Shown here piece by piece: positions 244 to 15,829 of a stretch of DNA of 17,025 nucleotides; the first letter of the stretch is position 1, and each line of letters opens with the position of its first letter. The position numbers were made by a program, and so were the translations under genes. The DNA lies in contig JADFUO010000335.1 in assembly GCA_015222115.1 (NCBI GenBank), positions 1-17,025 on the forward strand. Reading direction: 5' to 3'. Below the pieces are notes generated by a model that made no database searches, was not told the origin of the DNA, and saw only the letters and a program-made list of their open reading frames with translations. The stretch is from Bacteroidota bacterium. GTDB lineage: Bacteria > Bacteroidota > Bacteroidia > Bacteroidales > JADFUO01.

Positions 244-3200
244 ATGAAAACAAAAGCACCATATAAACCTAAGAATCACATAAGAATAGTAACTGCAGCT
301 TCTTTATTTGACGGGCATGATGCATCAATAAATATAATGAGGCGAATAATACAGGCAACAGGTGCCGAAGTTATACATCTCGGTCATAATCGTTCTGTTC
401 AGGAAATTGTTGATTGTGCTGTTCAGGAAGATGTTCAGGCAATAGCAATTACTTCCTACCAGGGAGGGCACATTGAATTTTTTAAGTATATGTATGACTT
501 ATTAAAAGAAAAAGGATGTCAACATATCAGGATTACCGGTGGTGGTGGTGGTGTAATCCTTCCTGATGAAATAAAAGAATTGCATGATTATGGAATTGCC
601 CGTATATATTCACCTGATGATGGAAGAAAAATGGGTTTACAGGGAATGATTAATGATACACTTAAAATAGCAGATTTCCCAACAGGTAAAAACAGCAACA
701 TTAAAATTGAAGATATTGAGAATAAAAATATTAATTCAATAGCCCATGCTATTTCTGCTGCCGAAAATTATCCCGAAACAATTAAAAGTTTTATGGATAA
801 AATAAAAAAAGAAATAAAAAGCAGAAAATCTCCTGTTTTAGGAATTACCGGTACCGGCGGTTCAGGCAAATCATCTTTAGTGGATGAGATTGTCAGAAGG
901 TTTTTAGCTGATTTCCCTGATAAAACAATTGCGATAATTTCTGTTGACCCTTCAAAACGCAAAACAGGAGGTGCCTTGCTTGGCGACAGGATAAGGATGA
1001 ATTCAATTGACGATCCGAGAGTTTATATGCGTTCATTGGCTACAAGGCAATCCAATCTTGCCATGTCAAAATATGTAAGAGATGCAGAGAGTATTGTGCA
1101 GGCAGCAAATTATGATCTGATTATTCTGGAAACCTCAGGAATTGGGCAATCGGATACTGAAATAATTGACCATAGTGATATTGCAATGTATGTTATGACA
1201 CCTGATTATGGTGCAGCTACACAGTTGGAAAAAATTGATATGCTTGATTTTGCCGACATTATTGCTCTGAATAAATTTGATAAAAGAGGCGCTTTGGATG
1301 CTTTGCGCGATATTAAAAAACAATATGCCCGTAATCATCAGATTTGGGATGCAGATATTGATACAATGCCTGTTTATGGCACGATTGCTTCACAATTTAA
1401 TGACCCGGGAGTTAATCAGCTATACCTCGCATTGATTAAAATAATCAAAGAAAAAACAGGTGTTGATTTTAAATCATCAATGAAAGCAGAGGATGAAACA
1501 CCTGAAAAAATATACATAATTCCACCTAATCGTACAAGATATCTTTCTGAGATTTCAGAAACTATAAGAAATTATAATAAATGGACAGAAGACCAGGCAG
1601 AAATAGCTCAAAGACTTCACAGTATCCAAAAATCAATAGATGTTATAAATTCCTCTTTTGAAAAAAAAGACAGGGGGTTTGATAAAGCCGTATTAGTTGA
1701 CCAGTTACGAAATGTTTACAAAGAGGTTGAACTAAACCTTGATGGTTTTAATAAAGAAATTCTAAAAGAATGGGATAATAAGAAACAATCTTATGAAGAT
1801 GAATATTTTACTTTTAAAGTAAGAGATAAGATATTTAAAATTGAAACTCATACAGAGTCATTGTCTCATCTGAAAATCCCGAAAATTTCATTTCCTAAAT
1901 ACAAAAACTGGGGTGATATTTTGAAGTGGGTTCTAAGAGAGAATGTTCCGGGTGAATTTCCTTTTGCTGCCGGTGTTTTTCCGTTTAAGCGTGAAGGCGA
2001 AGACCCAACCAGAATGTTTGCCGGTGAAGGCGGGCCCGAGAGAACCAACAGACGGTTTCATTATGTTTCATTAGGAATGCCTGCAAAACGCCTGTCAACT
2101 GCGTTTGATTCTGTAACCCTGTATGGTCAGGACCCTGATATACGTCCTGATATTTATGGTAAAATTGGCAATTCAGGTGTTTCTATTTCCTGTCTTGATG
2201 ATTTGAAAAAACTTTATTCAGGATTTGATTTATCCGATCCCAAGACTTCGGTTTCAATGACAATTAATGGTCCGGCTCCCACAATGGTTGGGTATTTTAT
2301 GAATGCAGCAATTGATCAGCAGTGCGAAATTTACATCAGGGAAAATGGGCTTGAACAAGAAGTTGAAAAGAAAATTGAGGATATTTACAAAAAGAAAGCT
2401 ACGGTACGTCCCCGATATCAGGGCGATTTACCTGAAGGAAATGATGGTCTGGGATTGATGTTGCTTGGAGTTACAGGAGATATGGTGTTACCTAAAGATG
2501 TTTATGAAAAAATTAAAGCTGAGACAATTAGCAGAGTTCGCGGAACAGTTCAGGCTGATATTTTAAAAGAAGACCAGGCTCAAAATACTTGTATTTATTC
2601 AACTGATTTTTCATTAAAGTTAATGGGAGATGTTCAGGCATACTTCAATGAACATAATGTAGGGAATTTTTATTCGGTTTCAATTTCGGGCTATCATATT
2701 GCCGAAGCAGGTGCAAACCCGATTTCACAACTTGCTTTTACTCTTGCAAACGGATTTACTTATGTTGAATATTATCTTTACAGAGGAATGGACATAAATA
2801 AATTTGCACCGAATTTATCATTCTTTTTCTCAAACGGAATTGACCCTGAATATTCGGTAATGGGGCGCGTTGCAAGACTTATATGGTCAAAAGCAATGAA
2901 GATGAAATACGGTGCTGATGAACGATCGCAAAAATTAAAATATCATATTCAAACATCAGGGCGCTCATTACATGCCCAGGAAATTGACTTTAATGATATC
3001 AGAACAACATTACAAGCTTTATATGCTATTTATGATAATTGCAATTCGTTGCATACCAATGCTTATGATGAAGCCATTACAACTCCTACAGAAGAATCGG
3101 TACGGAGGGCGATGGCTATTCAGATGATAATTAATCATGAATTAGGACTGGCAAAAAATCAAAATCCTTTACAAGGCTCGTTCATTATTGATGAATTAAC

Positions 3201-3639
3201 TGATTTGGTTGAAGAGGCAGTGTTGGCTGAATTTGACAGAATTACGGAAAGAGGCGGGGTTTTAGGTGCTATGGAAACCATGTATCAGCGAAGTAAAATA
3301 CAGGAAGAATCACTATATTACGAAACCCTGAAACATACCGGAGAATTGCCGATAATGGGTGTTAATACATTTTTATCATCCAAAGGCTCGCCCACAATTA
3401 TTCCGGGTGAAGTAATCCGTGCTACTGAAAAAGAAAAAGAATACCAGATTAATATGTTGGAACAACTTCACAAAACTTATGCTGAAGAATCTGAAAAACT
3501 GCTGAAAGAATTAAAAAAAGCCGCAATTTCGAATAAAAACATTTTTGAAAGCTTAATGGAAGTATCAAAATATTGCTCAATCGGTCAGGTTACCGAAGCC
3601 TTGTTTGGAGTTGGAGGACAGTACAGAAGAAATATGTAA
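244..3639 (+). CDS. icmF: Fused isobutyryl-CoA mutase IcmF (B12 domain, G-protein chaperone, mutase)
   Basis: The 1131-residue protein has the three-part IcmF order. Residues ~11-145 are a B12-binding domain with DGHD (His25 is the expected lower cobalt ligand) and a run of Gly at 99-103. Residues ~198-420 are a MeaB-like GTPase with P-loop GTGGSGKS (203-210), the ETSG segment (296-299) and NKFD (343-346) for guanine binding. Residues ~555-1131 are the mutase barrel. Phe592 and Gln780 align with the positions held by Tyr89 and Arg207 in Propionibacterium methylmalonyl-CoA mutase. That Phe/Gln pair marks isobutyryl-CoA/butyryl-CoA mutases. The fused GTPase normally loads and protects adenosylcobalamin. 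The start is an ATG with no Shine-Dalgarno sequence. The gene is 48 bp upstream of the butyrate-kinase-like gene on the same strand, so the two may be co-transcribed and concern C4 acyl-CoA interconversion. Length and motifs are complete. A related mutase such as pivalyl-CoA mutase is possible but less likely. Confidence 0.93.
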
Positions 3640-3687
3640 ATTTGGAATAATTAATATAATTTTGAAAAAAAATTAAATTTAGAATAT

Positions 3688-4764
3688 ATGATTTCACAAA
3701 AAATATTAGTGGTATATCCTGCAATAAACTCAACTTTTGTTGCAGTGTATATGGGTTCTGATATGATATTTTTAAAAAATATTAAACATCAGGAAGAAGA
3801 GTTAAATAAACTAAAAAATATTAAAGAACAGAAGGATTTCAGAAAGGACCTTGTTTTAAAGGTTTTAAAAGAAAATGACATAGATATTAATCGTGTTGAA
3901 ATGGTTATGGCTCGCAGCGGTATGTTAAAACCTTTAAAATCGGGTGTTTATGTAGTTAATGAGAAAATGCTGGAAGACCTGAGACTTGGTACTTATGGGA
4001 AACATCCAATGAATCTTGGCGGAATTATGGCTTATGAAATTGCTTCTTCGATCAATAAGAAAGCTTATATGGCCGATCCTATTGTGGTTGATGAATTAGA
4101 CGAAGTGGCAAGAGTTACCGGTCATCCGTTATTCAAAAGGAAATCTGTATTTCATGCGTTAAATCATAAACATTTTGCCAGGAAATATGCAAAGTCACAA
4201 AATAAAAATTATGAAGATCTTAATTTAATAGTAGCCCATATCGGAATAGGAGGTATTTCAATCGGAGCTCATAAAAATGGCAGGGTAATTGACGTTAATC
4301 AGTCGTTTGATGGAGATGGGCCGTTTACAATTTCAAGAACCGGATCATTGCCTTCCGGAGATCTGGTAAGGTTATGTTTTAGCGGAAAATATACAGAAGA
4401 AGAAATTATTAGGATGATCACAAAAGAAGGCGGTTATACAGCTTATCTTGGCACAAGCAATTTGGATGAAATTGACCAGAAAATTAGTTCCGGCGACGAA
4501 ACAACCTTATTTTATTCTTATGCCTTAGCTTATCAGGTTTCAAAAGAAATTGGAGCTATGTCAACAGTGCTTGAAGGTAATGTTGATGCTATCCTTTTAA
4601 CCGGAAATATTTTTAACAGTGAAAAATTTCTTGCTAACGTATCAAAAAGAGTAGGAAGTATTGCACCTATTGCATTGTATCCCAGTCAACTTGATTTTGA
4701 GGCATTAGCATTGAACGGTTTAAGAGTTATGAAAGGAGAAGTTGAAGTTCTTGAATATAAATAA
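3688..4764 (+). CDS. Butyrate-kinase-like ASKHA protein with eroded active-site motifs
   Basis: The 358 residues are the normal length of butyrate kinase and similarity covers the whole chain. Examples are the ARSGMLKP segment (75-82), VVDELDEV (133-140), FHALNHKHFARKYA (155-168), VAHIGIGG (182-189) and DGDGPFTISRTGSLPSGDL (208-226). Butyrate kinase makes butyryl phosphate and ADP from butyrate and ATP, or runs in reverse in fermentation. Several normally invariant residues have changed. The N-terminal NPGSTSTK phosphate motif reads YPAINSTF (10-17), so its Asn and Lys are gone. The LTGG nucleotide motif reads LTGN (304-307). The C-terminal GEDE segment reads SQLD (333-336). The frame is intact, so this looks like a conserved divergent paralog rather than a decayed gene. 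No phosphotransbutyrylase is in the window. It follows icmF, so isobutyryl or butyryl compounds are the obvious candidate ligands. Activity as a kinase is doubtful. Confidence 0.8.
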   Translation: MISQKILVVYPAINSTFVAVYMGSDMIFLKNIKHQEEELNKLKNIKEQKDFRKDLVLKVLKENDIDINRVEMVMARSGMLKPLKSGVYVVNEKMLEDLRLGTYGKHPMNLGGIMAYEIASSINKKAYMADPIVVDELDEVARVTGHPLFKRKSVFHALNHKHFARKYAKSQNKNYEDLNLIVAHIGIGGISIGAHKNGRVIDVNQSFDGDGPFTISRTGSLPSGDLVRLCFSGKYTEEEIIRMITKEGGYTAYLGTSNLDEIDQKISSGDETTLFYSYALAYQVSKEIGAMSTVLEGNVDAILLTGNIFNSEKFLANVSKRVGSIAPIALYPSQLDFEALALNGLRVMKGEVEVLEYK

Positions 4765-4844: not shown

Positions 4845-6791
4845 TTATTTTAATTCAGGGCGATCCTTATAATAATTTAATGATTCTGGGTTAGCAAATG
4901 CATCCTTGTTTTTCACTTCTTCACCATGAATTATTTTCTTAACTGCAATTTCTACTTTTTTCCCATTGATAGTGTAAGGAACATCAGGGACATCAAGAAT
5001 AACAGCAGGGACATGTCGCGGGCTACAATTTGTTCGTATTATGGAAGCAATTTTTTTCTTCAGTTCATCAGTAAGGTTGAATTTGTTATTTAATTTGACA
5101 AATAAGATCACACGTTCATCATCCTCAAATTTTTGCCCCACAACAACCGAATCATCAATTTCTTCCATGTTTTCAACCACACGGTAGATTTCAGAAGTAC
5201 CTATTCGAACACCACCGGGATTTAAAGTTGCATCCGAGCGTCCGAACATTGTAATGCCACCATGTTCGCTGATACGAATGTAATCACCATGCCACCATAT
5301 ATTTTCATAAACTGTAAAATAGGCATTTTTATATTTTTCTCTGTTTTCATCATTCCAGAAATATATCGGCATGGAAGGAAAAGCGGATTTACAAACCAGT
5401 TCGCCTTTATCCCCGATAATCGTATTACCATTTTCATCAAAACTGTCAACGTCCATACCTAATCCGCGACATTGAATTTCGCCTTTATAAACCGGCAGAA
5501 TTGGATTTCCCAATACAAAACATGAGATAATATCAGTACCCCCTGAAATTGAAGATAACTGAACATCTTTTTTCCATTTATTATAAACGTATTCAAAGCT
5601 TTCATCTGATAAGGGAGAGCCGGTTGAAGTAATTGCTTTCAGTTTCGGGAAATCGGAAATTTTTTTAGGTACAACACCCGCAGCTTCAAGCGAGGCAATA
5701 TATTTTGCACTCGTCCCGAAAATTGAAATGTCCAGTTCATCAGCCATTTTAAGCAAAGCATCAGGTGCGGGATAAAACGGGTTTCCATCATAACAAACAA
5801 TGGTAGCTCCAACTGCCAGTGAACTAATAAACCAGTTCCACATCATCCAGCCACAGGTGGTAAAATAAAAGATTACATCATCTTCCGTAAGATCGCAATG
5901 CAGAATTAATTCCTTTAAGTGTTGAATTAATGTACCTCCTGCTGAATGGACAATACTTTTCGGAAGTCCTGTTGTTCCGGATGAATACATTATGTAAAGC
6001 GGATGATCAAAAGGTAATTGTTCAAAGGTCATTTCTTCTTTTGAGGGTTGAGCCAGGTCTTCCCAACTCATGGCTTTTGGCATTGTTTCTAAATCCGGAT
6101 TACCTGTATATTTTATCATCACTACATTTTCAACAGATGGTAATTTATCAAGGATGCCTTTTAACTTTTCCTGCGAATCAAATATTTTACCTTTAAAATA
6201 ATAGCCGTCTGCCGAAAAAATGATTTTGGGTTCTATCTGGCTGAACCGGTCAAGCACACCTTTAATTCCAAAGTCGGGAGATGAAGATGACCAGATTGCG
6301 CCTATTGAAGAAGCAGCAAGCATGGCAATTATTGTTTCGGGCATGTTGGGCATGAACCCGGCAACACGATCGCCTTTTTTTATGCCGAGTCTTTTCAAGC
6401 CTTCAGCTACTTTGTGAACTTCATCAAACAGCTCTTTATATGTAATTGTTTTTTTTACTTTATCTTCTCCACGGAAAATAATTGCCTGATGGTTATCTCT
6501 TCGCCGGAGCAGGTTTTCGGCATAATTTAATCGTGCACTGCTGAACCACTCAGCTCCCGGCATTTTTTTTGGTTCATCAACTACTTTATCATATTTTTTT
6601 GAATAAATAATTTGAGAATAATCCCAAAATTCTCCCCAAAAATCGGCAATATTTTCAATACTCCATTGATGAAGATTGTAATAATCTTTAATATCCTGAT
6701 TATACTTTTTCCTGATCACATTAAGGAATTCATTCATCTGTGATCTTTCTGCGTTTTCTTTTTTTGGTTGCCAAAGGGTTTTATATTTCAT
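4845..6791 (-). CDS. aacS: Acetoacetyl-CoA synthetase (acetoacetate--CoA ligase)
   Basis: This adenylate-forming ligase activates acetoacetate with ATP and CoA. With start ATG at 6791 it has 648 residues, the usual AacS length. An upstream in-frame TTG at 6818 is a less likely start. The N-terminal ACAS segment carries WxPKKENAERSQMNEF and FWGEFWDYSQI, both typical of AacS. The ATP/AMP signature YIMYSSGTTGLPK lies at ~266-278. The hinge-region motif GRSDATLNPGGVRIG lies at ~517-531. The catalytic Lys sits in TINGKK near residue 611. It is the last minus-strand gene and converges on the butyrate-kinase-like gene with an 80-bp gap. A 308-bp interval separates it from the acyl-CoA dehydrogenase, so it may have its own promoter. 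It would recapture the acetoacetate released by HMG-CoA lyase, which fits the leucine-degradation context. Confidence 0.93.
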   Translation of the reverse strand: MKYKTLWQPKKENAERSQMNEFLNVIRKKYNQDIKDYYNLHQWSIENIADFWGEFWDYSQIIYSKKYDKVVDEPKKMPGAEWFSSARLNYAENLLRRRDNHQAIIFRGEDKVKKTITYKELFDEVHKVAEGLKRLGIKKGDRVAGFMPNMPETIIAMLAASSIGAIWSSSSPDFGIKGVLDRFSQIEPKIIFSADGYYFKGKIFDSQEKLKGILDKLPSVENVVMIKYTGNPDLETMPKAMSWEDLAQPSKEEMTFEQLPFDHPLYIMYSSGTTGLPKSIVHSAGGTLIQHLKELILHCDLTEDDVIFYFTTCGWMMWNWFISSLAVGATIVCYDGNPFYPAPDALLKMADELDISIFGTSAKYIASLEAAGVVPKKISDFPKLKAITSTGSPLSDESFEYVYNKWKKDVQLSSISGGTDIISCFVLGNPILPVYKGEIQCRGLGMDVDSFDENGNTIIGDKGELVCKSAFPSMPIYFWNDENREKYKNAYFTVYENIWWHGDYIRISEHGGITMFGRSDATLNPGGVRIGTSEIYRVVENMEEIDDSVVVGQKFEDDERVILFVKLNNKFNLTDELKKKIASIIRTNCSPRHVPAVILDVPDVPYTINGKKVEIAVKKIIHGEEVKNKDAFANPESLNYYKDRPELK

Positions 6792-6801
6792 ATTGGTAAG
6801 T

Positions 6802-6819
6802 TTTGGTATTAAGACCAAA
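6802..6819. promoter_or_regulatory. Dyad just upstream of aacS (possible operator or 5' UTR hairpin)
   Basis: The perfect 6-bp arms TTTGGT (6802-6807) and ACCAAA (6814-6819) are separated by 6 bp. The dyad ends 10 bp before the aacS ATG on the minus strand. Its position suits a repressor site or a leader hairpin. No partner regulator is seen in the window. A short AT-rich dyad like this could be chance. Confidence 0.25.
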
Positions 6820-7099: not shown

Positions 7100-8245
7100 T
7101 CAGACCCCAATATATCTTGAAATAACCAGTCGCTGGATTTCGGAAGTACCTTCGCCAATTTGTAATAAACGCTGATCGCGGTAAAATCGTTCAACATCAT
7201 AATCTTTCATTAAACCATAACCACCATGAAGCTGGACAGCTTCATCAGCTACTTGCTTGGCAATTTCCGAGCAATAAAGTTTTGACATTGCAGCTTCTTT
7301 CCCGAAAGGTTTATTGTTGTCTTTCAGCCAGCATGCTTTGTAAAGCAGGTTACGAGCCAGTTCGATTTTTGTTGCCATATCTGCAAGTTTAAAAGCATTG
7401 ACCTGGAATTTACAGATTGGCTTACGGAATTGTTTTCGTTCCTGTGAATATTGCAATGCCAGTTCAAAAGCACCCTGGGCGCAACCTAAGCCCATTGCAG
7501 CGATTGACAATCTTCCGTTATCAAGTGTGCTTAACATAATTTTTGAGCCCTGACCGATTTTACCTAAAAGATTTTCTTCAGGCACTTTGCAATCATCAAA
7601 ATAAAGTTCGGCTGTGTCTGAAGCTCTCCACATCATCTTGCCATGCATGGTCACTTGCTTAAATCCGGGTGTTCCTTTTTCAACAATAATACATGTGAAT
7701 TCTTTTTTCCCGTCTTTTTCTCCGGATACTGCCTGAACAGTAGAGCCAATGGAAATATCTGCTGAACCATTAGTAATGAAAATCTTTGATCCGTTTATTA
7801 TCCATTCTCCGTTTTCCAATATTGCTTTGGTTTTTGTTCCTCTGGAATCTGAGCCGGCATCGGGTTCTGTAAGTCCGAATCCCCATAAAGCATCGCCTGT
7901 GCAAAGTTGAGGCAGGTATTTCATTTTTTGTTCTTCTGTTCCGTAATAGTAAAGCGGTCCTATTCCAAGCGAATTATGTGCCGCAAGTGTTGCTGCCTGT
8001 GAACCGTCAACTCTTGCAATTTCTTCAACTGCAATTATGTAAGATAAATCATCCAAACCTTGTCCACCATATTTTTCGGGTAAATACATACCAAATAATC
8101 CGAGCTCCCCGATTTTTTTGGTCAATTCAACAGAAAACTCAGCCTTTTCATCAAGATCTTTGGCTACGGGTTTTATTTCTCTTTCTGCGAAATCTCTTAC
8201 GGTTTCCCTGATAAGTTGTTGTTCTTCTGTTAATTCAAAATTCAT
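7100..8245 (-). CDS. Acyl-CoA dehydrogenase (short/branched-chain type)
   Basis: The 381-residue FAD flavoprotein would oxidise an acyl-CoA to the 2-enoyl-CoA and pass electrons to ETF. Domain order is the standard helical N-domain, beta domain and helical C-domain. Signature segments are GFGLTEPDAGSDSRG (~122-136), QERKQFRKPICKFQ (~268-281) and QLHGGYGLMKDYDVER (~338-353). The base is probably Glu365 in the C-terminal IGEGTSEIQR segment, the usual place in butyryl- and medium-chain enzymes. Isovaleryl-CoA dehydrogenases generally have Ala or Gly there and carry their Glu in the LDLER helix. Here that helix reads LDNGR, with Gly244. So although the locus position suggests isovaleryl-CoA dehydrogenase (LiuA), the active-site layout points to a straight-chain or 2-methyl-branched substrate. 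It begins 29 bp after the fusion carboxyltransferase gene, so the two are probably co-transcribed. Confidence 0.92.
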   Translation of the reverse strand: MNFELTEEQQLIRETVRDFAEREIKPVAKDLDEKAEFSVELTKKIGELGLFGMYLPEKYGGQGLDDLSYIIAVEEIARVDGSQAATLAAHNSLGIGPLYYYGTEEQKMKYLPQLCTGDALWGFGLTEPDAGSDSRGTKTKAILENGEWIINGSKIFITNGSADISIGSTVQAVSGEKDGKKEFTCIIVEKGTPGFKQVTMHGKMMWRASDTAELYFDDCKVPEENLLGKIGQGSKIMLSTLDNGRLSIAAMGLGCAQGAFELALQYSQERKQFRKPICKFQVNAFKLADMATKIELARNLLYKACWLKDNNKPFGKEAAMSKLYCSEIAKQVADEAVQLHGGYGLMKDYDVERFYRDQRLLQIGEGTSEIQRLVISRYIGV

Positions 8246-8274: not shown

Positions 8275-10449
8275 TTACTCGAATTCAATTAAAGCAACTC
8301 CTGCATCAACCATTTCATCAAGGGAAACAAGAATTTTCTTTATAACTGCATCTTTCTTTGAAACAATGTTGTTTTCCATTTTCATGGCATCAATAACTAT
8401 TACAACATCACCTTTTTTAATTTTATTACCTTCTTTTACATTTATCTTGAATATTCTTCCTGGAATAGGTGAAATGATGTGGTGTTCTTCATCTGCCATG
8501 AGTTCTTCTTCTCCATGTGAAATTGCCTCCTGTTCTAAAAGGTCATTCCTAAACATTTGAAAGTTTCCTCCGTTTATTGTAATTTTTGTTTTTCCTTCAT
8601 CACCTTTTGAAATATTTGCAAGGTAAGTTTTATCGTTTACAGTAAAATCCAGTTCACCTTTATCAATAAAGCATAATTTTGAATTATATTTATTTCCAGA
8701 AATTTCAAATTCGTATTCTTTATCTTTGGCTTTATTGATTTTTACGGGATATTCTTCTTCGTTATAAGTTAAATTAATGGTCATCAAATTTCTCCAGTAT
8801 CCGATTGTTTCCCAAACATTATGATTTTTTTGAACATGCTGTTCCTCGGAAATTAATCTATTATTAAGACTGTAAAGCAGGAATGCAATCATAGCAATCG
8901 GGTACTCAACTTTATCTTTGTTATAAGAATTCCGGTTGGGGGTTTGTTTTTCTTTCACGGCGATTGTTGTTTTTGTTGTTGAACTTTGTGATTTTAATTT
9001 TTGAATTTCGTCTTCAAATCTTTTTTTTGCACGACCGGATTTATAATCTCTGTATTGGGTTTCGTGCATGGCGAACTCAAATAACTCTTCATCATTTTCA
9101 CCAAAATCCCATTTATTATTTTTCATTTCTTTGCGATACTTATCCAGTACATCGGGATATGCATCCTGTGGTATTCCGGTATAAAATTCCCTGTTTTGTT
9201 TTTCTGCCAGATTGATTATTTCAGGAGCTAACGGACCAGGTAATTTACCTGCTTTTCCAAGTATCATGTCCCAAGTGGTTTCATCCATCATTGAATATCT
9301 TTCTTCTCCTTTTGCCAACTGAACGATATTTAGAAGTGCTACATTTTTTACATACTGGCTGAAAGGTGTAACCAGTGGCGGATATCCTAATTTGGGCCAA
9401 ACATAGGCAACTTCGTCAAATAATTTCATAAGGAGGTCATCTTCCGTAAGTTCTTGTTTATTACTGGCTTTTAAAGAATAATTTATACCATCCTGAACAC
9501 CTTTTAGATCAGCCATCAGGCTTCCCATCATACCGCCGGGCAGACCTGATTGTATCATCAATGATGAGAGAAATCTATTTTTAGGATTAATAAAATACCC
9601 CAGAAAATCCTCAATAAAACTATGTGTTAGAGCACGGGCTTCCATATATGCTTTCATATTGATTTTAGGGACGTCAAAACCTGCATCTTTAAGCATAGCC
9701 TGAATTGTTATCACATCAGGATGGACCATTCCCCACGACAGCGGCTCCATTGCAACATCAATATAATCGGCTCCGGCCTTAGCGACTTCCAAGGTTGAAG
9801 CAATTGAAAATCCGGGACCTGAATGCCCGTGATACTGGACTATAATATCGGGATATTTGTCTTTGATAGCTTTGACTAATTTACCTAATGTTGCAGGTCG
9901 TCCGATACCTGCCATATCTTTCAGGCAAATTTCATCTGTTCCGAATTCAACAGCTTTGTCAACAACATCCATAAAATAATCAACACTATGGATTTTTGAA
10001 TGAGTGATACTCAATGCTACCTGGGATATCATCCCGGCTTCTTTAGCATATTTTACTGAGAGCTCAAGGTTTCTCGGGTCATTTAATCCGCAGAATGATC
10101 TTGCAATATCTGTACCTTGTGCTTTTTTAACTTTATACATTAAGTGGCGGACATCAGCAGGTACAGGAAACATTCGTATGCCGTTTAATGCTCTTTCAAG
10201 CATGTGTGTTTGAATACCTGCTTCATTAAAAGGTTTTGTCCATTCACGGACAGCTTTGTTGGGATTTTCTCCGTAAAGTAAGTTTACTTGTTCAAAAGCT
10301 CCTCCGTTTGTTTCAATTCTTGAGAAACATCCCATATCAATTATGACGGGGGCAATCTTTTTTAATTGGTCAATACGGGGAACATATTTCCCTGAAGACT
10401 GCCACATGTCGCGGTATATCAAACTGAATTTTATCGGTCGTTTTTTCAT
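8275..10449 (-). CDS. OadA/PycB-type carboxyltransferase fused to an MCC-alpha-like BT and biotin-carrier tail (putative transcarboxylase subunit)
   Basis: The 724-residue chain joins parts that usually occur in different enzymes. Residues ~1-480 are a keto-acid carboxyltransferase of the oxaloacetate decarboxylase alpha / pyruvate carboxylase B / transcarboxylase 5S type. It has Asp14 in YRDMWQS, Lys177 in CLKDMAG (expected carbamylated metal ligand), His207 and His209 in YHGHSGPG, then YPPLVTPFSQ (~356-365). A Ser/Thr/Lys-rich linker covers ~485-510. Residues ~516-650 have the WETIGYWR start (546-553) and beta-rich repeats of the BT domain of methylcrotonyl-CoA or propionyl-CoA carboxylase alpha subunits. 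Residues ~656-724 are a biotin carrier with AMKM and biotinyl Lys690. There is no biotin carboxylase domain. The gene lies where liuD (MCC alpha) would be expected, two genes from an MCC-type beta subunit. I infer a subunit that moves CO2 between a keto acid and an acyl-CoA without ATP. Pocket segments differ from OadA (see findings), so the donor is uncertain. Confidence 0.85.
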   Translation of the reverse strand: MKKRPIKFSLIYRDMWQSSGKYVPRIDQLKKIAPVIIDMGCFSRIETNGGAFEQVNLLYGENPNKAVREWTKPFNEAGIQTHMLERALNGIRMFPVPADVRHLMYKVKKAQGTDIARSFCGLNDPRNLELSVKYAKEAGMISQVALSITHSKIHSVDYFMDVVDKAVEFGTDEICLKDMAGIGRPATLGKLVKAIKDKYPDIIVQYHGHSGPGFSIASTLEVAKAGADYIDVAMEPLSWGMVHPDVITIQAMLKDAGFDVPKINMKAYMEARALTHSFIEDFLGYFINPKNRFLSSLMIQSGLPGGMMGSLMADLKGVQDGINYSLKASNKQELTEDDLLMKLFDEVAYVWPKLGYPPLVTPFSQYVKNVALLNIVQLAKGEERYSMMDETTWDMILGKAGKLPGPLAPEIINLAEKQNREFYTGIPQDAYPDVLDKYRKEMKNNKWDFGENDEELFEFAMHETQYRDYKSGRAKKRFEDEIQKLKSQSSTTKTTIAVKEKQTPNRNSYNKDKVEYPIAMIAFLLYSLNNRLISEEQHVQKNHNVWETIGYWRNLMTINLTYNEEEYPVKINKAKDKEYEFEISGNKYNSKLCFIDKGELDFTVNDKTYLANISKGDEGKTKITINGGNFQMFRNDLLEQEAISHGEEELMADEEHHIISPIPGRIFKINVKEGNKIKKGDVVIVIDAMKMENNIVSKKDAVIKKILVSLDEMVDAGVALIEFE

Positions 10450-10510
10450 ATTTTATTTTTCTGTAATCTTTTCCTCAGGAGAGGAAATAAAAAAATGACA
10501 TTCAAATAAT

Positions 10511-11299
10511 CTATTTTACCCAGTTGGGTTTTCTTTTTTCAATAAAGGCAGCCATACCTTCCTGCCCTTCTTTTGAAGCACGTAACTCAGCAATCAAATT
10601 TGCTGTGTAATCAATGGAATCTTCAAAATTATATTTATTTGAAATATTGTAAAGTAACTGTTTGCAGGCAGCCATTGCATCCGGTCCGCTTGACATTAAC
10701 ACTTTTATAGTTAAATTTATCTGGTCTTCCAGTTTTTCAGCGGGTAAAGATTTATTTACCAATCTGTAATATTCTGCTTCTTTTCCAAGAAATCTTCTTC
10801 CGGTAAGCATCAGGTCTCTTGCTCCGTATTCACCAATTCGTTTTACAACATAAGGCGAAATAGTGGCAGGAACAATGCCGAGTTTCACTTCTGCAAAAGC
10901 AAATTTTGTTTCATCTGTACAATAAACAAAATCACAGGCAGCAAGCAATCCGTTTGCTCCACCTATGGCAGCGCCCTGCACAACAGCAATTGTAGGTTTT
11001 TTACAAGTATAAATTACGTTAAAGCATTTGGCTAATTGCAAACTGTCCTGATAATTTTCATCATAACCAAATTCGGCTATACCTTTCATATAATTCAGGT
11101 CGGCACCTGCACAAAATGATTTTCCCCGCCCCCTGAGTAATACAATTCGTACTTCGGACATACTATTAATTTCATGAAAACAATCAATAATTTCAGCTAT
11201 CATTTCGGCGTTCATAGCATTGTGTTTTTCAGGGCGGTTTAACCATACAGTACCGACTTTATTTTCTAATTCAAATTCAATGTTTTGGTATTGTTTCAT
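10511..11299 (-). CDS. liuC: Crotonase-family methylglutaconyl-CoA hydratase
   Basis: The 262-residue crotonase-fold enzyme is predicted to interconvert 3-methylglutaconyl-CoA and HMG-CoA. The oxyanion-hole segments are FCAGADLNYM (62-71) and QGAAIGGANGLLAACD (108-123). Glu137 in FAEVKLGIVPATIS matches the catalytic Glu164 of rat enoyl-CoA hydratase. The place of the other catalytic Glu (144 in rat) is Gly117, which I recall as common in bacterial LiuC-type hydratases and unlike classical enoyl-CoA hydratase. The start is an ATG. It lies between the carboxyltransferase beta gene (71 bp upstream) and the fusion carboxyltransferase gene (61 bp downstream), all on the same strand, and that neighbourhood supports the methylglutaconyl assignment. 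A generic enoyl-CoA hydratase is the main alternative. Confidence 0.87.
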   Translation of the reverse strand: MKQYQNIEFELENKVGTVWLNRPEKHNAMNAEMIAEIIDCFHEINSMSEVRIVLLRGRGKSFCAGADLNYMKGIAEFGYDENYQDSLQLAKCFNVIYTCKKPTIAVVQGAAIGGANGLLAACDFVYCTDETKFAFAEVKLGIVPATISPYVVKRIGEYGARDLMLTGRRFLGKEAEYYRLVNKSLPAEKLEDQINLTIKVLMSSGPDAMAACKQLLYNISNKYNFEDSIDYTANLIAELRASKEGQEGMAAFIEKRKPNWVK

Positions 11300-11335
11300 T
11301 TCGTTAAAAATTTTGTAACTATTTATTTGTCACTG

Positions 11336-11363
11336 TCGTAATTCGTAATCCGTAACTCGTAGA
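11336..11363. repeat. Four tandem 7-bp units (TCGTAAT-like)
   Basis: Four adjacent heptamers, TCGTAAT, TCGTAAT, CCGTAAC and TCGTAGA, lie in the 71-bp spacer between the beta-carboxyltransferase stop and the hydratase start. The first two are identical. No function is evident. It may be a slippage tract or a spacer within the operon. Confidence 0.5.
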
Positions 11364-11370
11364 TCATATT

Positions 11371-12978
11371 CTACATCCTGAATACACCGAATTTTTGTTC
11401 AGGAAATTTATTATTCAACGACATTGAAATACCCATTGCAACTATTTTACGTGTATCAACCGGATCAATGATACCATCGTCCCACAAGCGGGCAGTACTA
11501 AAATAAGCAGAGCCTTCCTGATCGTATTTATCCATAATAGTTTTTCTAAGGTTATCAATTTCTTCCTGAGGCATTTCTTTTCCTATAGCTTTGTACTGGT
11601 CGTATTTAACGGTGATCAGAACACCGGCTGCCTGCATTCCGCCCATCACCGAGATTTTAGAATTAGGCCACATAAACAACAAACGGGGGCTGTAGGCACG
11701 ACCAGCCATTCCGTAATTACCAGCACCGAAAGAACCGCCGAATATGACTGTGAATTTGGGGACATTTGCATTGGCAACTGCGTGAACCAATTTGGCTCCG
11801 TCCTTAGCAATGCCTTTTCTTTCAAAATCTTTTCCAACGATAAATCCTGTTATATTTTGAAGGAATAACAGCGGAGTTTTTCTTGTTGCACATAATTCAA
11901 TAAAATGTGTTCCTTTTAAAGCGGATTCAGAGAACAAAACACCATTATTTGCCAGTATCCCGACAGGAAAACCCATGATACGGGCAAAACCCGTAATAAG
12001 AGTTTTGCCGTATCTTTCCTTGAATTCGTGGAACTTACTTCCATCAACAATACGCATAATAACTTCGCGTGGGTCAAGCATTTTTCTGAAATCAATAGGT
12101 GCTATTCCATATAATTCTTCGGGGTCGTAAATTGGCTCTTCAATAGCTTCAATGTCTAAAATTTGTTTTTCATTTACTTCAAGATTTTCAAAGATATTCC
12201 TGCAGATTTGAATAGCATGTTCGTCGTTTTCAGCTAAATGGTCAGCTACTCCCGACATTGAAGTATGAACTTCTGCACCGCCTAATTCTTCAGGTGTAAC
12301 AACTTCTCCTGTAGCTGCTTTAACCAATGGTGGTCCGCCAAGGAAAATTGTTCCCTGCTTTTTAACGATAATTGCTTCGTCACTCATTGCAGGAACATAC
12401 GCACCTCCGGCAGTACATGATCCCATAACGATTGCTATTTGCGGAATTCCCTTTGATGATAACTGTGCCTGGTTGTAAAAGAACCTGCCGAAGTGATCTC
12501 TGTCGGGAAAAACATTTGCCTGCTCAGGTAAAAATACTCCTCCGGAATCAACCAGATAAACGCAGGGCAAATTGTTTTCCATAGCAATTTCCTGTGCCCG
12601 TAAATGTTTTTTTATTGTTTCTTTGATGTAAGTACCGCCCTTTACAGTTGCATCATTTGCAATAATTATGGTTTCTTTTCCGTGTATTACGCCTATTCCT
12701 GTAACGATCCCTGCTGAAGGATGACCATTGTCAAAAATATTGTAAGCTGCAAGTGGAGATAATTCCAAAAAGGGAGTATTAGGATCAATCAGCTTATCAA
12801 TTCTTTCCCTGACAAGCAGCTTCCCTCTTCCTTTATGTTTTATTATGGCTTTTTCCGGACCACCCTTAATAATTTCTCGATGAATTTCTTTATATTTATT
12901 TAAAATTTTCAGAAATTCTTCTTTGTTTTTTTTAAACTCATCCGAGTTGGTATTGATTTTTGTTTCTAATGTAAACAC
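11371..12978 (-). CDS. liuB: Acyl-CoA carboxyltransferase beta subunit, methylcrotonyl-CoA type
   Basis: The 535-residue crotonase-like carboxyltransferase transfers the carboxyl group between carboxybiotin and an acyl-CoA. Segments typical of MCC beta are GKLLVRERI (52-60), [15 protein letters not shown] (187-201), [21 protein letters not shown] (~377-397) and [21 protein letters not shown] (~411-431), ending in [13 protein letters not shown]. The VGKxFE...[11 protein letters not shown] pattern separates MCC and geranyl-CoA carboxylases from propionyl-CoA carboxylases. The predicted start is GTG at 12978 and there is no nearby in-frame ATG. It is the first gene of the minus-strand group and faces the divergent lyase genes across a ~180-bp AT-rich region. 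Its usual partner, a biotin-carboxylase alpha subunit, is missing here. The biotin carrier is supplied by the fusion protein two genes downstream. It corresponds to the 12S component of Propionibacterium transcarboxylase. Confidence 0.92.
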
Positions 12979-13038: not shown

Positions 13039-13156
13039 ATTTCAGTGCAATTATAAATAAATTTTTACTATTTATGCCGATTAATTTTAGATATTTAATT
13101 ATTTTAGCAGAAATAAATTTTGAAAAAATAAAGATATAAAGATAAAAAATGTGATT

Positions 13157-14164
13157 ATGAACTATCCAAAAAAAGTAAAAATCGGAGAAATAACCGTTAG
13201 GGACGGTTTTCAGCATGAAGAAAAATTTATTCCTACAGAAGCAAAGCTTTGGGTTCTTGAACAATTAATTCTTGCAGGATTTAAACATGTTGAAACAACA
13301 AATTTTGGCAATCCACGAGGGATGCCTCAGTTTAAGGATGCCGATGATTTAATGAAACGTTTGCATGCAAGCAAAAAAGTTAAACATTTGCTTGATGATG
13401 TAACCCTCACAGCAATCACAATCAGGGAAAGGTCAATAGAAAGGGCAATACAGGCAAAGAAAGACGGGTATGGGCCCGACAGGGTTTTATTAATGGTTTC
13501 AACGAGTGAATCACATCACAAAAGAAATTCAGGTGCAAGTCTTGCTGAATACTGGAAGATGAGTGAAAAATATATTCCTATGTGCCATGATGCCGGTATT
13601 AAGGTAAACGGTACAGTAAGTACGATTTGGGGCTGCCCCATAGAAGGTCCTACTGAAATGAAAAAAGCCATAGAATTTACACAACGATGGCTTGATATCG
13701 GTGCTGATGATATTGAACATGCCGACCATGATGGCTCTGCCTCTCCCGACAGGGTTTATGAATATTTCTCAATGCTTTTGGACGCAATTCCACAACCTGA
13801 AAAACATATTGCTCATTTTCATGTTACACGCGGATGGGGATTAGCAAATGTTTTAGCTGCATTGCAGGCAGGAATGACGAATTTTGAATCGTGTTTAGGA
13901 GGAATCGGTGGTCAGCCCGCAAATTTTGTTGATGGAGTGCCAGTTTCCGGCACAGGTGCTTATTACTATAAAGACCCCAATGCAGTTGGTTTGGTTTGCA
14001 CTGAAGATATGGTTGTTATGATGGATGAAATGGGAATTGACGTGGGTGTTGATGTTGACAAAGTTCTTGAGATCGGGAAAATATTTGAAAAAATAATCGG
14101 TCGCAGGTTACATTCGGAAACAATTAATAATGGCAGAATCCCCAAAACATTGACAGGAAGGTAA
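13157..14164 (+). CDS. Divergent HMG-CoA-lyase-like DRE-TIM metalloenzyme lacking the catalytic Cys
   Basis: The 335 residues (ATG at 13157; a GTG lies 6 bp upstream) form a TIM-barrel lyase or acyltransferase of the HMGL-like family. The metal-site signature is present: Arg15-Asp16 in TVRDGFQHE, and His220 and His222 in AHFHVTRGWG. HMG-CoA lyases have an essential Cys in GGCP on the flexible loop. Here the segment is LGGIGGQPANFVDG and the residue is Gln253. The chain is also longer than the neighbouring lyase and ends in a distinctive VGLVCTEDMVVMMDEMGID segment (~277-295). It is therefore unlikely to be an ordinary HMG-CoA lyase. Automated annotation would probably say pyruvate carboxyltransferase or HMGL-like. 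It is the first gene of the plus-strand group, 36 bp before the Cys-containing paralog, so a role in the same pathway is likely. The reaction is unknown. Confidence 0.85.
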   Translation: MNYPKKVKIGEITVRDGFQHEEKFIPTEAKLWVLEQLILAGFKHVETTNFGNPRGMPQFKDADDLMKRLHASKKVKHLLDDVTLTAITIRERSIERAIQAKKDGYGPDRVLLMVSTSESHHKRNSGASLAEYWKMSEKYIPMCHDAGIKVNGTVSTIWGCPIEGPTEMKKAIEFTQRWLDIGADDIEHADHDGSASPDRVYEYFSMLLDAIPQPEKHIAHFHVTRGWGLANVLAALQAGMTNFESCLGGIGGQPANFVDGVPVSGTGAYYYKDPNAVGLVCTEDMVVMMDEMGIDVGVDVDKVLEIGKIFEKIIGRRLHSETINNGRIPKTLTGR

Positions 14165-14200
14165 TCACTATTCGTTTTCCAGTAGAAATAGAGAAAATTG

Positions 14201-15046
14201 ATGAAAATAATCGAAACTCCCCGCGACGGTATGCAGGGCTTAAAGAAATTTATTCCCACACAACTCAAGGCAGATTATATTAATTTATTATTAAAAGTTG
14301 GTTTTGATGCTGTTGATGTCGGGAGTTTTGTTTCACCTGATGCAATTCCGCAGCTAAGCGATACGGCAGAAGTTTTGAAAAAATTGGATCTGTCAAAAAC
14401 CAAAACAAAATTAATGGTTTTGGTTGCAAACAAAAAAGGAGGTGAAATTGCTGCCGGTTTTGATGAAATAAAATACCTTATTTTTCCATTTTCGGTTTCT
14501 CCAACATTTCTAAAAAGAAATATTAATTCTGATATTGAAAGTTCGTTGCAAACCATTGAAGTTTTAAAAAATATTTGTATAAAAGCAAAAAAGGAACTTG
14601 TAGTTTATATAGCAATGGGTTTTGGAAATCCTTATGAAGATAAGTGGAATATTGAGTTAGTTGAGAAATGGGTTGATGTACTTTACAGGCTTAAGATACA
14701 AATTATTCCTTTTTCAGATATTCTTGGAAATTCAACACCGGAAAGAATAAAAGAGGTTTTTTCAACAGTAATTCCTAAATTTCCTGGTGTGGAATTTGGA
14801 TTACATTTACATGCCAAACCCAATGATTGGTATGAAAAAACAGATGCTGCATATAAAGCCGGCTGCAGAAGATTTGATACGGTTATAAATGGCTTGGGTG
14901 GTTGCCCTATGGCAGATGATAAACTGATTGGTAATATGGACACAAAAAATTTACTGTATTATTTTGATAAAAGTAATATTAAATATAAAATTGATAAAAA
15001 AGCATTTGATGATGCTGTAAAAATGGCATCAAAAATATTTAATTAA
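14201..15046 (+). CDS. liuE: Hydroxymethylglutaryl-CoA lyase
   Basis: The 281-residue enzyme (ATG at 14201; an in-frame TTG just before it is less likely) should cleave HMG-CoA to acetyl-CoA and acetoacetate. Arg8 and Asp9 lie in ETPRDGMQG, VDVGSFVSPDAIPQLSD at ~38-54 matches the family's SFVSP segment, the metal-binding His202 and His204 are in LHLHAKPND, and the catalytic Cys235 is in GLGGCPMADD on the active-site loop. The N-terminus is short but starts directly at the first barrel strand, so nothing essential seems missing. It sits between the Cys-less paralog and the DUF6125 gene with gaps of 36 and 33 bp, indicating one transcript. Its product acetoacetate would be activated by the acetoacetyl-CoA synthetase encoded in the opposite direction. 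Confidence 0.9.
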   Translation: MKIIETPRDGMQGLKKFIPTQLKADYINLLLKVGFDAVDVGSFVSPDAIPQLSDTAEVLKKLDLSKTKTKLMVLVANKKGGEIAAGFDEIKYLIFPFSVSPTFLKRNINSDIESSLQTIEVLKNICIKAKKELVVYIAMGFGNPYEDKWNIELVEKWVDVLYRLKIQIIPFSDILGNSTPERIKEVFSTVIPKFPGVEFGLHLHAKPNDWYEKTDAAYKAGCRRFDTVINGLGGCPMADDKLIGNMDTKNLLYYFDKSNIKYKIDKKAFDDAVKMASKIFN

Positions 15047-15079: not shown

Positions 15080-15829
15080 ATGGGAAAAAAATTAGAATCA
15101 CAGGAAGACCTGAATCATAAAGATACCGCGCGGTTAATAATTGATTTTTTTCATCGTACTATGATGCATTATGCTTTCTGGTATGCTGAAGTGCAACATC
15201 AGTTTGGACGCGAGAAAGCACAAAAGATACTTACAGAAGCATATTCAAAAAGTTATCATATTCAGATGAAAAGATTGTCCAAGACCCTGGGGTTTGAAAT
15301 GGAAGATAATATTCCAAAACCATTGCTTGACCTTCCCAAAGAAAAACTTCATGAGTTAAAAGAAAAAGTAGCTGTAAACTGGCTGGCAAATGATGGAGTT
15401 TGGTTTCAGGCAGTTGAGTTTTCAAAAAGCATGTTTGATGCAAAAAGGTGTAATGACACTTGCTGGGGACAATTTTCTCCTTTTGAAGCATGGTCAATAA
15501 AACGCTTTTTGAATTTACCTGAAAACCCCGGACTGGAAGGATTAAAAAAAGCATTGAATTTTCGTTTGTATGCCACAGTAAACAAACAATCAATAACAGA
15601 AGAAACTCCAACTAGTTTTGTTTTTCAGATGAATGACTGCCGCGTTCAAAGTGCCCGGAAACGAAAAGGATTAGATGATTATCCATGCAAATCAGGTGGT
15701 TTGGTTGAATACATGACTTTCGCCGAATCAATAGACCCGAGAATAAAAACCGAATGTATCAGCTGCCCACCCGACCTACATCCGGATGAATGGTTTTGTG
15801 CGTGGAGGTTTTATGTTGAGGAGGAATAG
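15080..15829 (+). CDS. DUF6125-type conserved protein of unknown function
   Basis: The 249-residue soluble protein resembles what I recall as the DUF6125 family, related to a group annotated as L-2-amino-thiazoline-4-carboxylate hydrolase-like. Conserved-looking segments are VNWLANDGVWFQAVEF (99-114), AKRCNDTCWGQFSPFEAW (121-138), NDCRVQSARKRKGLDDYPCKS (~185-205) and IDPRIKTECISCPPDLHPDEW (~218-238). There are seven cysteines in the second half (124, 128, 187, 203, 226, 229, 240), including a CxxxC and a CxxC pair, which suggests a metal site or redox chemistry. No signal peptide or membrane segment is visible. It begins 33 bp after HMG-CoA lyase and is the last gene of the group. The co-directional arrangement suggests a link to acyl-CoA metabolism, but I cannot assign a reaction. 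The family name is from memory. Confidence 0.75.
   Translation: MGKKLESQEDLNHKDTARLIIDFFHRTMMHYAFWYAEVQHQFGREKAQKILTEAYSKSYHIQMKRLSKTLGFEMEDNIPKPLLDLPKEKLHELKEKVAVNWLANDGVWFQAVEFSKSMFDAKRCNDTCWGQFSPFEAWSIKRFLNLPENPGLEGLKKALNFRLYATVNKQSITEETPTSFVFQMNDCRVQSARKRKGLDDYPCKSGGLVEYMTFAESIDPRIKTECISCPPDLHPDEWFCAWRFYVEEE

Follow-up and report, generated by a model that had tools for sequence, protein, structure and literature searches.

The biotin-dependent enzymes closest to the system described here are the Propionibacterium transcarboxylase, 3-methylcrotonyl-CoA carboxylase (MCC, EC 6.4.1.4) and the oxaloacetate decarboxylase (OAD) alpha subunit with its relative PycB; a Giardia transcarboxylase, reportedly described by Jordan in 2003, is listed with them. 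At the methylcrotonyl-CoA step, breakdown of leucine and isovalerate ordinarily consumes ATP, a real cost for energy-limited anaerobes. The window analyzed here is the whole 17,025-nucleotide contig JADFUO010000335.1 of a Bacteroidales genome (assembly GCA_015222115.1). It encodes an MCC-type beta subunit and a 724-residue fusion protein in which a keto-acid carboxyltransferase takes the place of the biotin carboxylase (BC) of an MCC alpha subunit. Based on sequence comparison, these two proteins probably (at odds of roughly 0.8) constitute an ATP-independent biotin transcarboxylase for the exchange oxaloacetate + 3-methylcrotonyl-CoA <-> pyruvate + 3-methylglutaconyl-CoA, a reading in which we infer the activity, the keto acid, the direction and the docking of the subunits.

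In the Propionibacterium transcarboxylase the same three functions are supplied by the 5S, 1.3S and 12S subunits, and there is likewise no BC. The 5S subunit matches the N-terminal half of the fusion (148 bits; TM-score of 0.78 relative to the target) and 1.3S matches its carrier, but in the fusion a single polypeptide combines the 5S and 1.3S functions, separated by a BT domain. MCC resembles the fusion system in its operon and in its beta subunit, BT domain and carrier, and in related genomes the same operon slot holds a normal MCC alpha; the fusion alpha differs in having no BC and a keto-acid carboxyltransferase in its place. OAD alpha and PycB are homologous to the N-terminal half, to which Bacteroidales OadA-like proteins are related in 1519 of 1519 pairs at a median identity of 72%, whereas the fusion has a tail wholly of MCC alpha type, an MCC beta neighbor and no OadB or PycA neighbor. 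Because its beta subunit is not 12S and its alpha subunit lacks BC, the fusion system is neither EC 2.1.3.1 proper nor EC 6.4.1.4; it should combine the mode of action of EC 2.1.3.1 with the substrate of EC 6.4.1.4. The elements on which this comparison turns are the following:

8275..10449, minus strand: 724-residue fusion of keto-acid carboxyltransferase, MCC-alpha-type BT domain and biotin carrier
8968..10449, minus strand: OAD/PycB/5S-type carboxyltransferase, residues ~4–494 (coordinates for 1–494), with the metal set Asp14, Lys177, His207 and His209
8500..8928, minus strand: BT domain, residues ~508–650 (limits approximate), with a helix, a hook containing WETIGYWR (546–553) and an eight-stranded barrel
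8278..8487, minus strand: biotin carrier, residues ~655–724, with the predicted biotinylated Lys690 in AMKM (codon 8380–8382)
11371..12978, minus strand: MCC-type beta carboxyltransferase, 535 residues, diagnostic Phe163

A preliminary description of this DNA had named the metal set, WETIGYWR and Lys690, all of which are where it placed them, and had read the protein as an OadA/PycB/5S-type carboxyltransferase followed by the BT domain and carrier of an MCC alpha subunit. Homology bears out both parts. The four metal-set residues align to 5S and to pyruvate carboxylase (PC), and the metal and carbamyl-lysine residues are kept in 31 of 31 fusions. A Pfam domain search found no Biotin_carb domain in the 724-residue protein; its carrier region matches Biotin_lipoyl, and Lys690, the lysine of MKM, is invariant in the alignments. 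Over 213 columns (E 2.6e-54) the tail aligns with the tails of Bacteroidales MCC alpha subunits, residues ~508–650 sharing homology with the BT domain of MCC alpha, but with ordinary OadA-like tails it aligns over only the 76 columns of the carrier part. Derivation of the tail from the 168-residue carrier of the same genome was set aside, that alignment covering 161 columns at E 1.3e-31 against the values for MCC alpha. Pfam PF21139 (BT_MCC_alpha) matched 0 of 149 genomes of the order and 0 of 14 controls; a model silent everywhere being uninformative, the tail profile A1 took its place. Full-length structure prediction of the fusion gave a middling pLDDT of 73.8, with residues 282–306 below 50. 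When the two-domain tail was compared with propionyl-CoA carboxylase (PCC) and MCC in Foldseek, the rmsd was about 14–16 in most rows because the BT and carrier domains are rotated relative to each other, and the best VIA rows are carriers alone. An assembly chimera as the source of the fusion was also considered and rejected.

The beta subunit lies two genes from the fusion, and its assignment to MCC in the preliminary description is upheld by alignment scores and by a diagnostic residue. Its five best solved chains score 689–723 bits: human MCC beta, a Pseudomonas MCC beta, an M. smegmatis MCC chain and two chains named for PCC, one of which (9tps_A) is identical in sequence to entries titled Legionella MCC. 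Scores are lower for geranyl-CoA carboxylase (GCC, 472 bits), the best PCC beta (266) and 12S (252). The MCC-type N-terminal extension is present, the alignment starting at residue 3–5. A passage of PMC4673880 gives Phe in MCC beta where GCC has Gly; Phe163 of the window protein aligns to human residue 191 and is Phe in 67 of 67 relative betas. By these sequence criteria the partner is a true MCC beta, not a 12S-type acyl-CoA subunit, and both its substrate and its quaternary structure should therefore be MCC-like.

The gene order beta–hydratase–alpha–dehydrogenase occurs in sampled Bacteroidales, and its alpha position is taken either by the fusion or by an MCC alpha of ~660 residues (BC-BT-BCCP). 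Counting only alpha proteins of at least 560 residues at loci with room before the contig end, the fusion loci have beta upstream in 19 of 21 cases, the hydratase in 22 of 24 and the dehydrogenase downstream in 24 of 25; for MCC alpha loci the corresponding counts are 30 of 35, 27 of 37 and 29 of 38. The fusion does recur beside MCC beta in other genomes, for which the preliminary description had proposed a search. The two fusion loci with no upstream beta are L007 and L020; in genomes G098 and G033 beta is present on a contig other than that of the fusion.

The two kinds of alpha subunit exclude each other. The tail profile matched at E <= 1e-30 in 111 of 393 genomes of the order; typed by domain, 32 of these carry the keto-acid carboxyltransferase, 79 BC (77 typed by sequence, the other two, G014 and G099, by a same-contig BC match) and 0 both, an absence of overlap with a hypergeometric probability of 5e-4 if kinship is ignored. 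Single family codes can contain both types: f13 (fusion in G012, BC-bearing alpha in G520), f74 (G629 versus G073 and G562) and f68 (fusion in G625, versus G067, G465, G558 and G685). Within a 149-genome subset, 60 genomes have an MCC beta of roughly 60% identity or higher, a count that omits G118, where the 69%-identical match is a piece at the end of a contig, and four genomes at 47–50% identity (G104, G062, G053 and G084). Seventeen of the 60 have the fusion and 41 a BC in a frame of at least 587 residues. The remaining two are G043, whose BC is cut near a contig end and adjoins beta, and G138, in which neither the fusion nor a BC-bearing alpha was found. In a tree of the betas, the 27 linked to a fusion group with the MCC-alpha-linked L125 in a single clade (SH-aLRT 100), surrounded by betas linked to MCC alpha, and this nesting points to loss of the BC half rather than gain. 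This tree drops identical sequences and betas shorter than 400 residues; like the N-domain tree discussed below it is a quick LG+G4 tree, and its long branches may meet. The replacement of BC in an MCC alpha, proposed at first from domain content, is thus backed by gene order, exclusion and phylogeny as well, and at the level of sequence we regard the domain swap as established. An OadA-type carboxyltransferase would have replaced the BC half of MCC alpha within an existing operon in Bacteroidales.

The preliminary description had also reported no BC for this system. No BC lies in the fusion operon or protein, no MCC alpha was found at E <= 1e-30 in any of the 32 fusion genomes, and a dedicated MCC BC was found in none of them, the window's own genome included. 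That genome (83% complete) has one BC, on another contig, in an operon with the 168-residue carrier and a PCC-type carboxyltransferase. At that locus (L082, contig C163, 9211–11263) the last part of the 502-residue BC looks like the helix and hook of a BT domain, and the first part of the carrier like a barrel (read by eye; hhalign of carriers), so that a BT domain is apparently split across two genes. Biotin ligase was found in 17 of 18 genomes, G083 being the miss.

In the mechanism that we propose, the N-terminal carboxyltransferase would move a carboxyl group from oxaloacetate onto the biotin of Lys690, releasing pyruvate, while the MCC-alpha-type BT domain would dock the fusion subunit on MCC beta. 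The carrier would then swing to MCC beta, where the carboxyl group would be placed on 3-methylcrotonyl-CoA to give 3-methylglutaconyl-CoA. The hydratase, 3-hydroxy-3-methylglutaryl-CoA (HMG-CoA) lyase and acetoacetate-CoA ligase would continue the pathway.

Several observations weigh against this transcarboxylase and are given here with the rival explanations on which they bear. L125 (genome G101) is a BC-bearing locus, yet its beta, ~5 kb from its alpha, falls within the fusion-linked clade; a reversal or a transfer is possible. Exactly one BC is present in 27 of the 32 fusion genomes (open frames of 503–539 residues, one of 244), so an AccC-type BC could in principle act in trans. A housekeeping enzyme of this kind might charge the fusion with ATP, leaving an ATP-driven carboxylase of methylcrotonyl-CoA, and perhaps of pyruvate, with a shared BC; in actinobacteria one alpha subunit is shared among several betas. 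We consider this improbable. No BC was found in G012, G033, G090, G147 and G580; the second BC domain, PF02785, gave the same split in the 17-genome subset (13 with, 4 without), re-checking four of the five, and G033 and G147 are both sampled genomes of one genus. Where BC is present in this subset it adjoins its own carrier frame of ~170 residues in 12 of 13 genomes, the two being on different contigs in G083. A shared BC also leaves the exchange of the BC half for a keto-acid carboxyltransferase unexplained. The absences themselves rest on metagenome-assembled genomes, and G580 may be incomplete, given that G495 of the same genus has a BC.

A further rival is a sodium-pumping decarboxylase in which the fusion hands the carboxyl group of methylglutaconyl-CoA or oxaloacetate to the membrane subunit OadB. 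OAD_beta is present in 11 of 17 fusion genomes (in the window's own genome as a 62-residue end piece), and some OadA-like relatives are paired with OadB. This explanation is nevertheless most unlikely: OAD_beta was not found in the other 6 of the 17, no OadB gene occurs in any of 48 fusion loci (redundant copies included), and in G098, G103, G114 and G033 OadB adjoins a carrier frame of ~141–147 residues instead. In G012 and G090 neither BC domain nor OAD_beta was found. G012 (99% complete, 3% contamination) also gave no second match to the beta query, so the sole visible route on and off the carrier in this genome is between keto acid and acyl-CoA. The force of this example is reduced by an assembly of 700 contigs, with the fusion and MCC beta on small separate ones, and by a second, weaker tail match. 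In 13 of the 17 genomes no OadA-type carboxyltransferase other than the fusion was found; G026, G033, G090 and G147 have a separate one as well.

The identity of the keto acid is less secure than the transcarboxylation itself. The metal ligands and Arg13, Gln17 and Ser18 match OAD, 5S and PC. However, two active-site motifs depart from the classical forms (RDMWQS versus RD[AG]HQS; PGGMMGSL versus PGGM[IL]SN[LM]), and the strand-3 arginine is out of register relative to classical OAD, 5S and PC. The peculiar RDMWQS, MLERALN and PGGMMGSL show little or no variation across 31 fusions and 49 relatives, which would suit a transcarboxylase that uses another donor, such as a different 2-oxo or beta-keto acid. 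We think such a donor distinctly improbable. Of the 52 relatives that share this signature, 11 have an OadB gene no more than 300 bases away, as in the sodium-pumping OAD, and NCBIfam ranks pyruvate carboxylase B and oadA models first, though below their cut-offs. By the inference that these OadB-adjoining relatives allow, oxaloacetate is the likely donor. The 11 cluster in the N-domain tree, where the fusion group also takes in two OadA-like rows (L040, L064). Decarboxylation of oxaloacetate and of glutaconyl-CoA releases similar energy, so the exchange should lie near equilibrium. For glutaconyl-CoA, PMC7145394 puts the release at about 30 kJ/mol. The lyase and acetoacetate-CoA ligase genes suggest that the pathway runs toward breakdown. 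The transcarboxylase proposed in the preliminary description is supported, with its oxaloacetate softened to a probable donor by the altered motifs and its direction read from gene content.

One fusion (L097 in G069, also L078) is 699 residues long and lacks ~25–30 barrel residues after the metal histidines; it may be inactive or misassembled. This lineage also lends something to the view that the fusion is recent or degenerate and without a function of its own, or an assembly artefact. That view is barely credible for a protein found in 32 of 393 genomes under many family codes, with a conserved operon and invariant catalytic residues.

A scan for relatives with six peptide patterns, using one genome for each of 84,980 species, found 102 loci, of which 80 were kept. 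Besides the window, 27 of these have either the long form or a C-terminal portion of it (L057, a fusion truncated by a contig end, was classed as short), all from records of uncultured organisms titled as Bacteroidota groups or 'uncultured bacterium'. A sample of the phylum (296 genomes, E <= 1e-25) gave four genomes, namely the window's own and three with frames of 689 (one internal stop), 177 and 171 residues, which suggests that the fusion may extend beyond Bacteroidales. The current names of the listed homologues are 'pyruvate carboxylase subunit B', 'biotin/lipoyl-binding protein' and 'oxaloacetate decarboxylase'. A search of open-licence papers in PMC found no description of such a fusion. 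If the proposed transcarboxylase is correct, these names would be corrected, biotin transcarboxylation would be extended from methylmalonyl-CoA to the gamma-carboxylation of an unsaturated acyl-CoA, and leucine breakdown would be tied to the oxaloacetate/pyruvate pool. Nature would have exchanged the carboxyl-donor domain of a biotin enzyme without changing its acceptor subunit, its docking domain or its operon, a rule that could be of use in designing carboxylases.

In the first BC scan, no BC domain was found in 58 of 149 genomes of the order, including 52 of 130 near-complete ones. Free-standing OadA-like proteins are candidates for supplying malonyl-CoA by transcarboxylation in these genomes. 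More tentatively, at somewhat less than an even chance, the 3-methylcrotonyl-CoA:oxaloacetate transcarboxylase may be one sign of a broader pattern in Bacteroidales, whereby lineages in which no BC is found use oxaloacetate in place of ATP and bicarbonate for their acyl-CoA carboxylations.

The window genes are a leucine/isovalerate cluster. On the minus strand the order is MCC beta, enoyl-CoA hydratase, fusion, acyl-CoA dehydrogenase and acetoacetate-CoA ligase, and two lyase-like genes lie on the plus strand:

10511..11299, minus strand: enoyl-CoA hydratase family protein, probable 3-methylglutaconyl-CoA hydratase (substrate from context)
7100..8245, minus strand: acyl-CoA dehydrogenase, probable isovaleryl-CoA dehydrogenase (substrate from context)
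4845..6818, minus strand: acetoacetate-CoA ligase (TIGR01217 above cut-off)
13151..14164, plus strand: HMG-CoA-lyase-like protein 1 (NCBIfam match below cut-off)
14198..15046, plus strand: HMG-CoA-lyase-like protein 2 (NCBIfam match below cut-off)

IcmF, a fused isobutyryl-CoA mutase, and a member of the butyrate-kinase family are encoded next to the operon (244–4764, plus strand). Both are also near the operon in L002 and L075, and one or the other in some further loci; they may link pools of branched-chain acyl-CoA. A DUF6125 protein (15080–15829, plus strand) recurs next to the second HMG-CoA-lyase-like gene in several loci and is possibly an unnamed member of the pathway. Finally, HMG-CoA-lyase-like protein 1 has GIGGQP at the position where protein 2 has the usual signature GLGGCP, and it is possible that protein 1 acts on a different substrate.

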